From assembly GCF_038024035.1 (NCBI RefSeq), contig NZ_CP150664.1, forward strand, positions 1,922,001 through 1,986,000: a stretch of DNA of 64,000 nt, read 5' to 3'. Of the stretch, positions 10,521 through 17,536 are shown piece after piece. The notes under the pieces are model-generated. The model worked only from the letters and a program-made list of their open reading frames with translations, had not been told where the DNA came from and made no database searches. Made by a program: the position numbers and the translations under genes. The stretch is from Polaribacter pacificus. GTDB lineage: Bacteria; Bacteroidota; Bacteroidia; Flavobacteriales; Flavobacteriaceae. Positions within the stretch are counted from its first letter, which is position 1. Each line of letters starts with the position of its first letter.

Positions 10521-10931
10521 TTAACAAAATTCGTCGTAAGCTTGTGCTAAGTTTTGCGCAATCATCTGTGCAGAACGTCCTTCAATATGGTGACGCTCTA
10601 GCATGTGAACCAAGTTCCCATCCTTAAACAAGGCAATGGCTGGTGATGATGGAGGAAAAGGAATCATATGTTCTCTTGCTTTTTGAGTCGATTCTTTTTC
10701 TACACCTGCAAAAACAGTTGTTAAATTTGTAGGTCTTTTGTCTGCGCCTAATGAAGCAATCGCTCCAGGTCTAGCAGTACCTGCTGCACAACCACAAACA
10801 GAATTTACCATAACTAAGGTTGTTCCTTCTTTTGCCAATGCATTGTCTACATCTTCAGCAGTATATAAAGCTTCAAAACCAGCGTTGATCAATTCATCAC
10901 GCATTGGTTTTACTAATTCTTCTGGATACAT
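10521..10931 (-). CDS. BrxA/BrxB family bacilliredoxin (UPF0403)
   Basis: A 136-residue thioredoxin-fold protein of the YphP/YqiW family. In Firmicutes these proteins remove bacillithiol from mixed disulfides or act as weak disulfide isomerases. The diagnostic CGC motif is at residues 46-48 (NSVCGCAAGTARPGA). Length matches the family (~135-145). It is transcribed alone on the minus strand and faces the permease array. A TACCTTTG box on the minus strand (10951-10958) may be its promoter. Whether this organism makes bacillithiol cannot be judged from the window, so the thiol partner is open. Confidence 0.9.
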   Translation of the reverse strand: MYPEELVKPMRDELINAGFEALYTAEDVDNALAKEGTTLVMVNSVCGCAAGTARPGAIASLGADKRPTNLTTVFAGVEKESTQKAREHMIPFPPSSPAIALFKDGNLVHMLERHHIEGRSAQMIAQNLAQAYDEFC

Positions 10932-10950
10932 AATTTAAAATTTTAAGCTA

Positions 10951-10958
10951 CAAAGGTA
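10951..10958 (-). promoter_or_regulatory. Putative -7 box (TACCTTTG) for bacilliredoxin gene
   Basis: It matches the Bacteroidota -7 consensus TAnnTTTG on the minus strand, about 20 bp upstream of the start codon. No clear TTG -33 element is seen at the right distance. Confidence 0.45.
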
Positions 10959-11029
10959 CAGATAAAAATTAGGATTTAAAAGTCTAAGAATCTAACAAAG
11001 CGTTAACTTTTAGATCAGGTTTTTATGCC

Positions 11030-11037
11030 TATATTTG
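11030..11037 (+). promoter_or_regulatory. Putative -7 box (TATATTTG) for the TerB-DnaJ gene
   Basis: It fits TAnnTTTG exactly and lies 19 bp before the ATG of the TerB-DnaJ gene. The -33 element is not obvious. Confidence 0.5.
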
Positions 11038-11056
11038 ACACCTTAAAAAGATAAAA

Positions 11057-11800
11057 ATGGGAAATTTTACCAAATGGTTAGGAGCAGGATTGGGTTTTAC
11101 CTTAGGTGGGCCAATCGGGAGCATCATTGGGTTTGCAGTAGGAAGTTTTGTAGATGGATTTAGCAAAGAAGACATACTTAAAGAAGCACAGTCTGCCAGA
11201 GGTCGTTCTGCAGGAACGCAATCGGGAGATTTTGAAATAAGTTTATTGGTTTTGGCCTCTGTTGTGATAAAGGCTGATGGAAAGGTAGATCAACGAGAAC
11301 TCGATTATGTAAGAACTCAGTTTGTAGGCATGTACGGCAAGGATCGTGCAAACAATGCATTTCGTTTGTTTAAAGGCATCATCAAAGAACAAGTGTCTTC
11401 TTACCAAGTTTGTATGCAAATAAGACAGCATATGCCACATGCTTCTCGATTGCAATTGCTTCACTTTTTGTTTGGGATAGCCAAATCAGATGAGCACGTT
11501 ACAGAAGTTGAGGTTATAGAAATTAAAAAAATAGCAGGGTATTTAAACATCAATCCACATGATTTTGAATCGATCAAGGCCATGTTTTTTGACAGCTCTG
11601 ACAATGCCTATAAGATTTTAGAAATCACCAAAGATGCCACCAATGATGAGCTTAAAAAAGCCTACCGAAAAATGGCTAAAAAATACCATCCAGACAAGCT
11701 GCAAGATTTAGGAGAAGAGCATTTAAAAGGCGCACAGGATAAATTTTTACAGATTCAAAATGCCTACGAAAAATTAAAGAAAGAGCGAGGAATGAATTAG
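11057..11800 (+). CDS. TerB-DnaJ protein (DjlA-like co-chaperone)
   Basis: A 247-residue protein with three parts. A glycine-rich hydrophobic N-terminus (about residues 8-35, glycine-zipper-like) is followed by an all-helical TerB-like domain (about 55-165). A C-terminal J domain (about 180-245) contains the HPD tripeptide ([11 protein letters not shown]), which stimulates Hsp70 ATPase. This order is that of DjlA, a membrane-associated DnaK co-chaperone. The N-terminal segment may anchor it to the inner membrane. It stands alone between two intergenic regions. Family assignment is secure; its client is unknown. Confidence 0.9.
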
Positions 11801-11878
11801 AAAAGCATCGTCTGTATTGCAAGTTCTCAATCGTATACTTTATAGGTTAGAACCGCTGTAAGGCTGCGCCATTCTCCC

Positions 11879-11920
11879 TTGGCAACTTTGTCCTTTTGAA
11901 CCTTTGCAACTTTAGCCCTT
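11879..11920 (+). repeat. Short degenerate repeats of an AACTTTG/AACCTTTG motif
   Basis: Within the 181-bp gap before ileS the words CAACTTTG, GAACCTTTG and CAACTTTAG follow one another at roughly 12-16 bp spacing. This looks like a degraded short tandem repeat. The rest of the gap shows no gene or strong hairpin. Confidence 0.35.
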
Positions 11921-11981
11921 CATTTATCAAAAATTACAAGAAAATATGTAATTTCGCACATTGATTAAAGAGCAGGAAAAA

Positions 11982-14900
11982 ATGAGCACGAAATTTACTG
12001 AGTATAAAGGACTTGACCTACCAAAAGTTGCCGAAGAAATCTTAGATTATTGGAACACAGAAAACATCTTTGAAAAGAGCATTAGCTCTCGAGAAGGAAA
12101 CAAACCGTTTGTGTTTTTTGAAGGGCCTCCATCAGCCAATGGGTTGCCAGGAGTTCATCACGTATTAGCTCGTTCTATTAAAGATATTTTTCCACGCTAT
12201 AAAACCATGAAAGGTTTTCAGGTAAAGCGTAAAGCAGGATGGGATACTCACGGTCTTCCAATTGAGTTGGGTGTAGAAAAAGAATTGGGAATCACCAAAG
12301 AAGATATCGGAACCAAAATATCTGTAGAAGCCTATAATGAAGCTTGTAAAAAAGCGGTGATGCGCTATACGGATATCTGGAATGATATGACCAATAAAAT
12401 TGGATATTGGGTAGATATGGAAGATCCATATATTACTTACAAATCTAAGTATATGGAGAGTGTTTGGTGGTTGTTAAAGCAGATTTACAATAAGAATTTA
12501 TTGTACAAGGGCTATACCATTCAGCCCTATTCTCCAAAAGCAGGAACAGGTTTAAGTTCACATGAGTTAAACCAGCCTGGAACCTATCAAGATGTTACAG
12601 ATACGACTGTTGTCGCGCAATTTAAAACGATAAAAGACAGCCTGCCAGAATTTTTACAAGTTGATGGCGATGTACACTTTTTAGCATGGACAACAACACC
12701 TTGGACCCTGCCCAGCAATACTGCATTAACCGTTGGGCCAAAAATTGACTATGTGCTAGTTGAAACTTTTAATCAGTATACTTTTGAGCCGATAAAAGTG
12801 GTGTTGGCTAAAAGCTTAGTTGCAAAACAATTTGCTGGAAAAAAGTTTAATCAAGTTAAAGATGTAGCCGATTTAAAAAGCTACACAGAAGCAGACAAAC
12901 AAATTCCATATTTGATTTTAAACGAATTTAAAGGGAAAGATTTAGTCGGAATAAAATACGAGCAGTTATTAAAATACGCCTTGCCTTATGAAAATCCAGA
13001 AAATGCTTTTCGAGTAATTTCAGGAGATTTTGTAACCACAGAAGACGGAACCGGTATCGTACATACTGCACCCACATTTGGTGCTGATGATGCCTTGGTT
13101 GCCAAACAAGCGAGTCCAGAAATCCCACCTTTATTGGTTTTAGATGACAACGGAAATCCAGTTCCATTGGTAGATCTACAAGGAAAATTTAGACCAGAGT
13201 TGGGTGAGTTTGCCGGGAAATATGTAAAAAATGAATATTATGCTGATGGTGAAGCACCAGAGAAATCTGTAGATGTAGAATTAGCCATCAAATTAAAAAC
13301 AGAAAATAAAGCCTTTAAGGTTGAGAAGTATGTGCACAGTTATCCAAATTGTTGGAGAACTGATAAGCCAATCTTATACTACCCATTAGATTCTTGGTTT
13401 ATCAAAGTGACCGATGTAAAAGATCGAATGCATGAATTAAATGAAACCATTAATTGGAAACCAGAATCTACAGGGACAGGACGCTTTGGAAATTGGTTAA
13501 AAAATGCCAATGATTGGAATCTTTCACGTTCTCGTTACTGGGGAATCCCATTGCCAATTTGGAGAACCGAAGATGGCAAAGAAGAAATCATGATCGGTTC
13601 TGTAGCAGAATTGAAATCTGAAATGGCAAAAGCCATTAGTGCAGGCCTGTTAAAAGAAGATATTTTTGCTGATTTTGAGGTAGGAAACATGTCTGAAGAA
13701 AACTATGATACCATTGATTTACACAAAAACATTGTAGATCAGATCGTTTTGGTTTCTAAATCAGGTAAACCGATGAAACGCGAAAGTGATTTAATTGATG
13801 TCTGGTTTGATTCTGGGTCGATGCCTTACGCACAATGGCATTATCCATTTGAAAATAAAGAATTAATAGACAATAAAGAATTTTATCCAGCTGATTTTAT
13901 CGCCGAAGGTGTAGATCAGACAAGAGGCTGGTTTTATACATTGCATGCAATCGGAACCATGGTTTTTGATTCTGTAGCCTATAAAAATGTAGTTTCAAAC
14001 GGTTTGGTTTTAGATAAAAATGGTCAAAAAATGTCGAAGCGCTTAGGCAACGCCACAGATCCTTTTGAAACCTTAAAAACCTATGGCGCGGATGCCACAC
14101 GTTGGTATATGATTAGCAATGCCAATCCTTGGGATAATTTAAAGTTTGATGTGGATGGGATTGCAGAGGTCTCTCGAAAATTTTTCGGGACGCTTTACAA
14201 TACTTATTCGTTTTTTACGCTTTATGCCAATATCGATAAGTTCTCTTATAAAGAAGCAGATATTCCATTAGAAGAACGTCCAGAAATTGATCGTTGGATT
14301 TTATCAGAATTGCACTCTTTGATTGCGCGTGTTGATGGATTTTATGGAGACTACGAGCCAACAAAAGCCACGAGAGCTATTTCTGATTTTGTTCAAGAAT
14401 TATTGAGTAACTGGTATGTTCGTTTGTGTAGAAGACGTTTTTGGAAAGGAGAGTATGAGCAAGATAAAATTTCTGCATATCAAACACTCTACACGTGTAT
14501 GTTAACGGTAGCCAAATTATCGGCACCGGTTGCGCCATTCTTTATGGATCGTTTGTATAAAGATTTAACCAGCGTAACGGGCAAAGAAACTTTTGAGAGT
14601 GTGCACTTAGCAGATTTCCCAGTGTATGATGCTGCTTTTGTAGATGCATCTTTAGAGAGAAAAATGGAGAACGCCCAGATTATCTCTTCATTGGTCTTGT
14701 CATTAAGAGCCAAAGAAAAAATCAAAGTTCGTCAGCCATTACAGAAAATAATGATTCCTGTATTGGACGCTCAACAAAAAGAAGAAATTTTAGCCGTTTC
14801 TCAGTTAATTAAACACGAGGTAAACGTTAAAGAAATAGAATTGTTAGATGATGCTTCTGGCATCTTGGTCAAGCAAATTAAACCGAACTTTAAAACTTTA

Positions 14901-15389
14901 GGACCAAAATTTGGAAAAGACATGGGCCTAATTTCTAAAGCAATTCAACAATTTTCGCAGGATGACATCATCAAAATAGAAAAAGATGGAAATTTGATGA
15001 TACAAATTGCCGGAAAAAGTATAAATTTGGAAACCTCAGATGTAGAAATCTCATCAAAAGACATTGAAGGTTGGTTGGTAGCAAATGCTGCTGGATTAAC
15101 AGTCGCTTTGGATGTGCATATTTCTGAAGATTTACGAAAAGAAGGAATTGCTAGAGAATTGGTCAATAGAATTCAAAATTTGCGTAAAGATTCTGGTCTT
15201 GAGGTTACAGACAAAATACAATTGACTGTTTTAAAGTTTGAAAACTTAGAGGCAGCAGTGCTGGAAAATAAAGACTATATCATGAGTGAAACACTTACCA
15301 AAGAACTCAATTTTGTTAGTACTTTAGAGAATGGTACAGATATTGAGTTTGATGATATAAAAAGTAAAATTATAATCCAAAAAATGTAA
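11982..15389 (+). CDS. ileS: Isoleucyl-tRNA synthetase, IleRS2-like, with GxHH signature
   Basis: Charges tRNA-Ile with isoleucine in the cytoplasm. The 1135-residue protein has the class I Rossmann core, a CP1 editing domain in the middle, KMSKR at residues 683-687, and a long C-terminal anticodon-binding region. The size and the editing/C-terminal layout fit the eukaryote-like IleRS2 branch. The HIGH motif is replaced by G57-V58-H59-H60 (ANGLPGVHH), with the first and third positions exchanged. The ATG at 11982 is preferred over an in-frame TTG at 11961 because homologues begin near MSTKF. A TAATTTCG element (11949-11956) resembles the -7 box with one mismatch. The dksA-like gene follows after 3 bp. 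Confidence 0.97.
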   Translation: MSTKFTEYKGLDLPKVAEEILDYWNTENIFEKSISSREGNKPFVFFEGPPSANGLPGVHHVLARSIKDIFPRYKTMKGFQVKRKAGWDTHGLPIELGVEKELGITKEDIGTKISVEAYNEACKKAVMRYTDIWNDMTNKIGYWVDMEDPYITYKSKYMESVWWLLKQIYNKNLLYKGYTIQPYSPKAGTGLSSHELNQPGTYQDVTDTTVVAQFKTIKDSLPEFLQVDGDVHFLAWTTTPWTLPSNTALTVGPKIDYVLVETFNQYTFEPIKVVLAKSLVAKQFAGKKFNQVKDVADLKSYTEADKQIPYLILNEFKGKDLVGIKYEQLLKYALPYENPENAFRVISGDFVTTEDGTGIVHTAPTFGADDALVAKQASPEIPPLLVLDDNGNPVPLVDLQGKFRPELGEFAGKYVKNEYYADGEAPEKSVDVELAIKLKTENKAFKVEKYVHSYPNCWRTDKPILYYPLDSWFIKVTDVKDRMHELNETINWKPESTGTGRFGNWLKNANDWNLSRSRYWGIPLPIWRTEDGKEEIMIGSVAELKSEMAKAISAGLLKEDIFADFEVGNMSEENYDTIDLHKNIVDQIVLVSKSGKPMKRESDLIDVWFDSGSMPYAQWHYPFENKELIDNKEFYPADFIAEGVDQTRGWFYTLHAIGTMVFDSVAYKNVVSNGLVLDKNGQKMSKRLGNATDPFETLKTYGADATRWYMISNANPWDNLKFDVDGIAEVSRKFFGTLYNTYSFFTLYANIDKFSYKEADIPLEERPEIDRWILSELHSLIARVDGFYGDYEPTKATRAISDFVQELLSNWYVRLCRRRFWKGEYEQDKISAYQTLYTCMLTVAKLSAPVAPFFMDRLYKDLTSVTGKETFESVHLADFPVYDAAFVDASLERKMENAQIISSLVLSLRAKEKIKVRQPLQKIMIPVLDAQQKEEILAVSQLIKHEVNVKEIELLDDASGILVKQIKPNFKTLGPKFGKDMGLISKAIQQFSQDDIIKIEKDGNLMIQIAGKSINLETSDVEISSKDIEGWLVANAAGLTVALDVHISEDLRKEGIARELVNRIQNLRKDSGLEVTDKIQLTVLKFENLEAAVLENKDYIMSETLTKELNFVSTLENGTDIEFDDIKSKIIIQKM

Positions 15390-15392
15390 GCA

Positions 15393-15770
15393 ATGACAGA
15401 GAATAAAATTAGATACTCAGATGCAGACTTACAAGAGTTTAAAGAAATCATCTTAAAAAAAATCGCTAGAGCAGAAGAAGATCTAGCGCTCTTGGAAAGT
15501 TCTTATAAAAACGGAGCTAATAATGACACCGATGACACTTCTCCTACCTTTAAGTCGTTTGAAGAAGGTTCAGACACTATGAGCAAAGAAGCCAATGTGC
15601 AATTGGCTATTCGTCAAGAAAAGTTTATCCGTGATTTAAAGAATGCTTTGTTACGTATAGAAAACAAAACTTATGGAGTTTGTAGAGTTACCGGAAACTT
15701 GATCCAAAAAGAACGTTTAAAATTGGTTCCGCATGCTACCTTAAGCATCGAAGCCAAAAGAAAACAATAA
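15393..15770 (+). CDS. TraR/DksA-family regulator lacking the zinc finger cysteines
   Basis: A 125-residue DksA-like protein. Such proteins enter the RNA polymerase secondary channel and alter initiation, often with ppGpp. The coiled coil spans roughly residues 10-85 and carries acidic residues near its tip (NNDTDDTSPT). The globular C-terminus keeps the DksA fold signature (YGVCRVTGNLIQKERLKLVP) but has only one of the four usual zinc-binding cysteines. It is co-transcribed with ileS (3-bp gap), and a strong terminator follows immediately. The loss of the finger appears to be a variant of the family and not a frameshift, because the reading frame is intact to the end. Confidence 0.9.
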   Translation: MTENKIRYSDADLQEFKEIILKKIARAEEDLALLESSYKNGANNDTDDTSPTFKSFEEGSDTMSKEANVQLAIRQEKFIRDLKNALLRIENKTYGVCRVTGNLIQKERLKLVPHATLSIEAKRKQ

Positions 15771-15773
15771 ATA

Positions 15774-15802
15774 AAAAAGCAGCGAGTTTCGCTGCTTTTT
15801 TT
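15774..15802 (+). terminator. Rho-independent terminator of ileS-dksA operon
   Basis: A perfect stem AGCAGCGA / TCGCTGCT with loop GTT is followed by seven T and preceded by A residues. It can work in both directions, serving also the convergent DCC gene. Confidence 0.9.
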
Positions 15803-15813
15803 ATGGGTTATTT

Positions 15814-16260
15814 TTAAGGTAAAAATCGTGCCTTTAGTTGAGGTGTCGGAATATAACAGGCTTCTTTTTTGCCGTACCAAGCATACCTGTTTCTTGCAAT
15901 ATAATCATAGACGATGTTTCTGAGTCCTGCAGGCAAAATTAAAAAAGGCGTCAAAAGATTGGTAGGAAAACCCAGTCTTGAGGCTATTTTAAGTGCTGCT
16001 GTTGATTTGTAAAATATTTTTTTGTCTGAGGTATACAGAATAATAGAGTCCATTTTTGCCACATCTACTTTAAAATGTGCTAAAATGGCTTGTCCAGTTT
16101 CTCCCTGTAATGAGGTAAAGAGAAAGCGTTGCTTTGTGTCCTTGCCAAGCACGTATTGTACAGAGCTGTTACAAAGATTGCAAACTCCATCAAAAAGAAT
16201 TAATTGTGTTCCCTCTGGTAGTATTGGTAGCATTTGCTTATCTGTTAAATGGGACTTCAT
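15814..16260 (-). CDS. DCC family thiol-disulfide oxidoreductase (DUF393)
   Basis: A 148-residue protein with the family's defining motif near its N-terminus (LILFDGVCNLCNSSVQYVL), where CxxC is the presumed redox pair. It also has the usual second half with the YAWYGKKEAC segment. It overlaps the end of the upstream DoxX-like gene by 23 bp, so the two are translationally linked. An internal ATG (residue 10) would remove most of the overlap and is a possible alternative start. DCC proteins are commonly found beside DoxX/HTTM membrane proteins; their substrates are not established. Confidence 0.88.
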   Translation of the reverse strand: MKSHLTDKQMLPILPEGTQLILFDGVCNLCNSSVQYVLGKDTKQRFLFTSLQGETGQAILAHFKVDVAKMDSIILYTSDKKIFYKSTAALKIASRLGFPTNLLTPFLILPAGLRNIVYDYIARNRYAWYGKKEACYIPTPQLKARFLP

Positions 16261-17536
16261 TGATCCAATGAAAACCTCGGTTAGTTAGTAAAAATTTCTC
16301 TCTATAATCTAGGGTTCGTTTCGTTTTAATTGAAATTGTATCTTTATTATAGAGACCGTTGAGGTAAAAATCACCGTCCACCCCTTCATGATAGGTAAAA
16401 GTATATTCTTTTAAATCTGCAGAGGTACTTTTTAGCTGTAAACTTTTCGCAAGACTGTCAATTTTTACAGTAAACCAAAGTTTTTCTCCATTTTTATATT
16501 GGATTAGCGCATATTCTTTATGATCTATGAGCAAGTTTTTCCACCCGTTAATTTCTGTCGGTGAATCTGATATTTCCTTACCTTTTTGAATGCTCACTTC
16601 TTCTATTTCATACAAACCTCTTAAAGGAAGTGCGGCCTTTGCTTGTATAGAGCGTTCTTTAGAGGCCATTGCATTTATGGTTCCATAACCCAATACATAG
16701 CTGAGAAGCAAAATTTTAGCAGCGATTAAGAAAATCTTAAAGCCTTTTTTAAATGGAGGCTGGTAGATGCTGGTTAAAGAAACAGGTTTTCTAAAAAAGA
16801 AAAATTGCCATGCTTTATTAAAATCACGTGCAAACAAAAAGGCAGCCATCAAAAATAAATGGGTGGATAATAACTTTACAGGTACATCGTAAAAATAATT
16901 TACAGCCATTACATTGGCAGTCGTCATAAGTGTAATGATTAGACCAAAAGTGAGTGTTCTTCTAAATAATAACAAAACGGCTGCCACTTCTGCAAGTCCC
17001 ATAAAGAGGTTATAGCCTTTTGAAAATCCTAAAAAAGTCCATGCCAGACCCATTGGAGAGGCTTCTCCAAAAGTTTGCGTTAATCGCGAGAAACTCGGTG
17101 GTGAAAATTGCAATTGAATTACTTTGACCAGTCCGTAATTGATAAGCATTAATCCAACATACAATCGCAATGAAAGGCTCAACCAATAGTACATTTTAAG
17201 GTAATTCTTTGATTTTTTGTCAATCAAACTCCAAATAAGCGTGCTAAAAATTGCTATCAAAGCAATGCTAAATACCAACACATAATCATAGGTAGTATCT
17301 CCACTTCCAGAAGGTCCTGTTGGAATTTTAACCTCAATTCCAAAGAAGGTTTTTCCAATCCCGGGAACAAAATTGTAGAACAGGTTTTTAAAAAAATTAC
17401 CAATAAACCCAAAATATGGATAAGCACCATTGTTTTGTAATAGGATAAACAATGAGAAATAACTAAAGAAAAAACGGAAACTTATTTTTTTTAAAAAAGA
17501 CCAATGGGTGTTTTCTGACGGGCTTATAGTGTTCAT
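16238..17536 (-). CDS. DoxX-like integral membrane protein
   Basis: A 432-residue protein with about seven or eight predicted helices in the first ~290 residues and a soluble C-terminal domain (about 310-432) of beta-rich appearance. The middle part (LMLINYGLVKVIQLQF and GLAEVAAVLLLFRR) resembles DoxX-type membrane proteins of respiratory or sulfur metabolism. It is the first gene of a two-gene minus-strand unit with the DCC oxidoreductase, suggesting that the pair forms a membrane redox system. The pair lies between dksA and lspA, which are otherwise often close to ileS. The exact function is unknown. Confidence 0.75.
   Translation of the reverse strand: MNTISPSENTHWSFLKKISFRFFFSYFSLFILLQNNGAYPYFGFIGNFFKNLFYNFVPGIGKTFFGIEVKIPTGPSGSGDTTYDYVLVFSIALIAIFSTLIWSLIDKKSKNYLKMYYWLSLSLRLYVGLMLINYGLVKVIQLQFSPPSFSRLTQTFGEASPMGLAWTFLGFSKGYNLFMGLAEVAAVLLLFRRTLTFGLIITLMTTANVMAVNYFYDVPVKLLSTHLFLMAAFLFARDFNKAWQFFFFRKPVSLTSIYQPPFKKGFKIFLIAAKILLLSYVLGYGTINAMASKERSIQAKAALPLRGLYEIEEVSIQKGKEISDSPTEINGWKNLLIDHKEYALIQYKNGEKLWFTVKIDSLAKSLQLKSTSADLKEYTFTYHEGVDGDFYLNGLYNKDTISIKTKRTLDYREKFLLTNRGFHWINEVPFNR

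Follow-up and report, generated by a model that had tools for sequence, protein, structure and literature searches.

Introduction

The closest described systems are isoleucyl-tRNA synthetases of type 2 (IleRS2) in which the first and third residues of the class I signature HXGH are exchanged. This G/AXHH motif was named by Brkic et al. (2023; PMC10485003), who tied it to inhibition constants (Ki) for mupirocin in the mM range and determined the structure of a type 2 enzyme in a GVHH variant (PDB 8c8w). According to their paper, the role of the first histidine of HXGH is to stabilise the transition state during activation, and in IleRS2 the signature is shifted so that a histidine at position three fits and assumes this role. 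The same histidine clashes with mupirocin in a model. The Ki for mupirocin lay at 0.2 to 1.1 uM in natural IleRS2 enzymes with HVGH, at 35 and 460 uM in two GVHH enzymes made in the laboratory and at 6.6 mM in a natural enzyme with ALHH. The catalytic efficiency of a natural non-canonical enzyme was similar, and motif-exchange experiments linked the motif to resistance directly. The C-terminal domain of IleRS2 is described there as being without the zinc-binding motif of IleRS1.

The G/AXHH enzymes of D. radiodurans (ALHH) and S. griseus both had a measured Ki in the mM range (PMC10485003). In the same paper, P. megaterium has a natural IleRS2 with HVGH as well as an IleRS1, and the HVGH of T. 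thermophilus IleRS2 belongs to a clade that is read as a natural reversion. The GXHH motif, its link to resistance and the mechanism have been published since 2023, and in a full-text search of one literature library for GXHH together with aminoacyl-tRNA synthetase PMC10485003 was the sole match. The strings 'Bacteroid' and 'Flavobacter' do not occur in its main text; its tree with 86 G/AXHH IleRS2 enzymes may well include Bacteroidota.

The signature motif of the isoleucyl-tRNA synthetase

The window is the whole stretch of DNA that was analysed, 64,000 nucleotides from Polaribacter pacificus. The original prediction had read the signature of its ileS gene as HXGH with positions 1 and 3 exchanged.

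11982..15389, + strand: ileS, isoleucyl-tRNA synthetase type 2 (IleRS2), 1135 aa (TIGR00392; PF00133, PF08264, PF19302; 100% own-genome match)
12150..12161, + strand: GVHH signature motif, residues 57-60 (translation, HMMER alignment)

Translation of 11982-15386 from the ATG at 11982 gave 1135 amino acid residues, which are numbered from this ATG as before; the mechanically called open reading frame begins seven codons upstream at TTG 11961 and has 1142 residues. The sequence ggagttcatcac at 12150-12161 (+) consists of the codons GGA GTT CAT CAC and encodes G57-V58-H59-H60. In HMMER alignments, this stretch matched without gaps the HVGH of P. megaterium IleRS2 (8c8u) and of T. thermophilus IleRS2 (1ile) and the identical GVHH of 8c8w, the chain that we take to be the P. 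megaterium variant of PMC10485003. Besides the motif letters, 8c8w shares the preceding 'ANGLP' and homology over nearly the whole length. E. coli IleRS1 has HIGH in the columns that hold GVHH here. Since the alignment to the HXGH of solved enzymes is gapless, GVHH occupies the class I signature site, and precisely its first and third residues are exchanged. The comparison with IleRS1 and IleRS2 references that the original prediction had proposed as a check put the motif exactly on the HXGH signature and nowhere else. The enzyme has the glycine at position 1 and the histidine at position 3 that define the G/AXHH IleRS2 enzymes. With D. radiodurans and S. griseus IleRS2 it shares the type and the exchanged positions, a likeness of motif and type and not of compared sequences.

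GVHH is neither a chance finding nor a sequencing error, because GXHH stood at the same position in 60 of 60 phylum loci, read by alignment, and in 12 further phylum genomes, read by a pattern on the frame. Nothing was found in favour of a misplaced motif or an error, with the true signature elsewhere; this is scarcely credible in view of the gapless alignments to solved IleRS2 enzymes and of the GXHH that near and remote relatives share.

Enzyme type and copy number

The ileS protein scored 995.8 bits with the isoleucyl-tRNA synthetase model TIGR00392 (cut-off 621.4). Its Pfam domains were PF00133, PF08264 and PF19302, the last at residues 941-1134, and no zinc-finger family appeared in its Pfam table. 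The protein thus has the C-terminal domain of type 2 and no reported counterpart of the zinc-binding motif of IleRS1. PF19302, which would be a marker of type 2, was also present in IleRS2 relatives from Paenibacillus and Clostridia. The best solved relatives were P. megaterium IleRS2 chains, of which the GVHH variant 8c8w scored 804.5 bits and the other three 793-800 bits, followed by T. thermophilus IleRS2 with 711 bits. IleRS1 catalyses the same reaction with a related catalytic core, but S. aureus IleRS1 (1ffy) reached just 319 bits and E. coli IleRS1 formed a long branch apart in the tree, so both bit scores and tree place the protein closer to IleRS2 than to IleRS1. Based on bit scores and domain make-up, the enzyme is a housekeeping IleRS2 with a G/AXHH signature.

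The check for a second ileS that had been proposed with the motif gave a single copy. The genome is one contig of 2,718,534 bases and 99.63% complete, and a profile search found exactly one place over the IleRS cut-off. Eight weaker places fell in three genes, those of ValRS, LeuRS and MetRS by NCBIfam, LeuRS being called from a partial frame. These three enzymes retain HMGH, HVGH and HIGH, respectively, so that of the four class I enzymes examined IleRS alone has the exchange. An Rfam search of the window at gathering thresholds gave two tRNA genes only and thus no T-box at ileS.

Predicted consequence for mupirocin

The identical motif letters and the clear homology make a strong case for carrying the published mechanism over to this enzyme. 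His59, at signature position three, would assume the catalytic role of the first histidine of HXGH. It would also clash with mupirocin and thereby raise the Ki, which lies in the mM range in natural examples. The Ki values among GXHH enzymes spread from 35 uM to 6.6 mM (PMC10485003), and therefore the motif alone does not set the degree of resistance. KMSKR and Leu675, in which the protein departs from P. megaterium IleRS2, also count against carrying the mechanism over.

The original prediction stated that the altered motif was known from IleRS2 enzymes in connection with mupirocin resistance of a very high degree, and PMC10485003 bears this out. It had further predicted intrinsic mupirocin insensitivity in this organism. 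An insensitive target is a fair prediction here, because the enzyme is an IleRS2 and is the sole ileS of the genome, but this is not specific to the organism, as the motif was found phylum-wide in the members read. The predicted insensitivity of the target may extend to the whole phylum. A literature search for a mupirocin Ki or MIC of any Bacteroidota gave none, only resistome surveys and other papers; in PMC7564983 mupirocin was tested for Staphylococcaceae. Taken together, it is very likely that the organism has a single housekeeping IleRS2 with a G/AXHH signature, present throughout the phylum in the members read and inherited within it, and that the published histidine mechanism raises the Ki of this enzyme for mupirocin.

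Distribution of GXHH in the phylum and beyond

A search of 58 genomes of the genus gave a match in 55. GXHH was read in all 29 of the best-scoring loci from this search, with the own locus as the thirtieth, in all 80 named loci (the best 80 of 592 confirmed relatives) and in 60 of 60 loci from 198 phylum genomes searched; the three sets may share species. Among 8000 scored proteins, the top 120 also had GXHH; two of these 120 were the window's own. The named loci were titled Bacteroidota, mostly Flavobacteriaceae, and among the best matches the closest by name were Polaribacter and Tenacibaculum.

The first 60 phylum loci were listed, better-scoring and unsplit matches with at least one per family where possible, a choice that leaned towards alike relatives. 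Eight genomes with a low score or a split match (G099, G152, G203, G223, G228, G236, G061 and G134) and four with a split match (G064, G246, G113 and G159) were added. All 12 had GXHH, which gives 72 of the 72 genomes read among the 198 searched, and each of the 39 families of the 198-genome draw had at least one GXHH reading. The second residue of the signature was Ile in 51, Val in 7, Met in 1 and Leu in 1 of the 60 aligned loci.

Some genomes gave no match. In the phylum search one of 198 (G232) stayed under the strict cut-off; its best IleRS scrap was a 74-residue frame at a contig end, and an assembly gap is likely. The three genomes of the genus search without a match (3/58) were all 53-80% complete. 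In the class search 94 of 99 genomes were over the curated cut-off. Two (G287 and G323, with a completeness of 99% and 95%) gave no match at 1e-100, and closer inspection turned up neither an IleRS1 nor an IleRS2 over the cut-off; they are taken, without proof, as assembly gaps. The motif was read in those class-search genomes that also belonged to the phylum set.

Outside the phylum, GXHH was present in the best 120 relatives of an Acetoanaerobium (Clostridia) enzyme and in one actinomycete (Nonomuraea). HXGH was the state in one plasmid copy of Sutcliffiella and in the best 120 relatives of a Paenibacillus enzyme.

A few loci were unusual in other respects. In one genome of the same genus (G028:C1:2187602-2191004; loci L195 and L198), ileS is split over two frames of 748 and 425 aa and reads GIHH; the split may be due to a frameshift, to an error in sequencing or to a programmed event. 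Housekeeping-like ileS genes were found on plasmid-labelled records (NZ_CP072187.1, NZ_OY725767.1 and others) of Riemerella, Parabacteroides, Bacteroides and Phocaeicola, which may be mislabelled pieces of chromosome. Two unannotated records from human faeces titled 'Bacteriophage sp.' (MT835484.1 and MT835536.1) contained a nearly full-length IleRS with about 40% identity, either a phage-borne synthetase or host DNA inside the record.

The second signature motif and the residue before it

14004..14006, + strand: Leu675 (alignments to P. megaterium IleRS2 and E. coli IleRS1)
14028..14042, + strand: KMSKR, residues 683-687, second class I signature, its last Ser replaced by Arg (translation)

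The protein differs from the P. megaterium chains in its length (1135 against 1032 residues), in KMSKR against KMSKS and in Leu675, which aligns with the His before KMSKS in P. megaterium and with the Phe in E. coli IleRS1. Within the own class, own family and order counted in, 31 of 33 loci had KMSKR, whereas only 1 of 27 loci from other classes of the phylum had it and 24 of these 27 had KMSKS. Among the eight genomes added later, all from other classes, KMSKS occurred in 7, KMSKT in 1 and KMSKR in none. GXHH was found both with and without KMSKR. PMC10485003 does not mention KMSKR.

The position of Leu675 probably corresponds to His582/Phe586 of PMC10485003, where the roles of these residues are described. 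A co-variation of the signature with the residue before KMSKS was considered and dropped, as the contrast came from very few independent lineages. The residue was His in all of the best 120 relatives of the Paenibacillus HXGH enzyme and mostly Leu in GXHH enzymes. GXHH together with His was seen in 5 of 60 phylum loci and in 1 of 120 Clostridia proteins, Met was present in 2 of 60 phylum loci, and the T. thermophilus enzyme (1ile) likewise has Leu, with HVGH.

Descent of ileS

A quick maximum-likelihood tree of 94 rows was computed, in which the root is for drawing only and the long outgroup branches meet. The 74 phylum rows formed one group (support 99, starred), all with GXHH, and the nearest rows of the own enzyme were Flavobacteriaceae. 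The inner groups mostly tracked genus, family and class. As exceptions, rows of the same genus were not all together and one family (f3) was split into two distant places. Two of its loci (L124 and L126) grouped near Flavobacteriales, apart from the f3 rows L130, L131 and L136; the family may be mixed, or the gene may have been transferred inside the class. In PMC4861432, ileS2 is reported to track the species tree at short distances only and to have undergone ancient transfers. As far as the tree can tell, GXHH in this organism was most likely inherited within the phylum and is not the product of a recent resistance event. Some transfer of ileS within the class may have taken place; the 94-row tree gave no indication of a recent acquisition from outside the phylum.

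The gene behind ileS was also compared.

15393..15770, + strand: DksA/TraR-family protein (PF01258, 28.7 bits, cut-off 24.9)

It starts 3 bases past the ileS stop and is possibly co-transcribed with ileS. A DksA/TraR-family gene was directly behind ileS in 78 of the 80 named loci, and it was again next in line at the plasmid-labelled ileS of Riemerella. These data bear on the idea that ileS is a mobile, acquired determinant of mupirocin resistance like mupA or mupB. The MupB and MupA models did match the protein with 766.8 and 733.4 bits, as is expected of any IleRS2, but both scores are far under the curated NCBIfam cut-off of 1900 and the protein does not belong to MupA/MupB. The sole copy in the genome, the nearest tree rows and the conserved gene behind ileS also argue against an acquired determinant, which we regard as extremely improbable.

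Inheritance within the phylum leaves the age of the motif and the cause of its upkeep to be considered. It is an even call whether GXHH was fixed in the ancestor of the phylum (a GTDB phylum, Bacteroidota by its named members) and not lost in the lineages read. Insensitivity of the target to mupirocin would then be an ancient trait of the phylum, its upkeep perhaps little tied to mupirocin, to which the own class adds the change from KMSKS to KMSKR. A compatible proposal, which concerns only the cause of upkeep, is that GXHH became fixed for catalytic or structural reasons or by historical accident, with insensitivity as a by-product; we rate it as plausible, if slightly short of an even prospect. 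The motif occurred without exception in the 72 phylum genomes read and in the best 120 relatives from Clostridia, a pattern that sits uneasily with constant exposure to one antibiotic, and the similar catalytic efficiency reported in PMC10485003 fits as well. Against it, the motif-exchange experiments of that paper tie motif and resistance together directly. In addition, thiomarinol, a mupirocin hybrid, is made by marine Pseudoalteromonas (PMC3069032), and exposure of marine relatives is therefore conceivable.

GXHH at this locus looks like the normal inherited state of the phylum, with no special resistance event. The original prediction read a known motif well but is no discovery, and the phylum-wide fixation is a small addition to the published work, perhaps not even that. 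Where resistome surveys score a Bacteroidota ileS as mupirocin resistance, they may be counting the housekeeping enzyme of the phylum. The phylum offers many natural GXHH enzymes for asking why a highly conserved class I signature rearranges and persists.

Other genes around ileS

In the window at 10521-17536, the neighbours include a disulphide isomerase family protein (PF06491), a TerB plus DnaJ protein and a DCC1-like oxidoreductase. A 432-aa protein at 16238-17536 matched no Pfam family. The DksA/TraR-family protein at 15393-15770 has a single cysteine, in CRVT at the place of the CxxC with which a C4 zinc finger begins. Of the 78 matched DksA/TraR-family stretches behind ileS, 77 likewise contain just one cysteine. 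A form of this family without the full zinc site appears to be conserved in Flavobacteriaceae.
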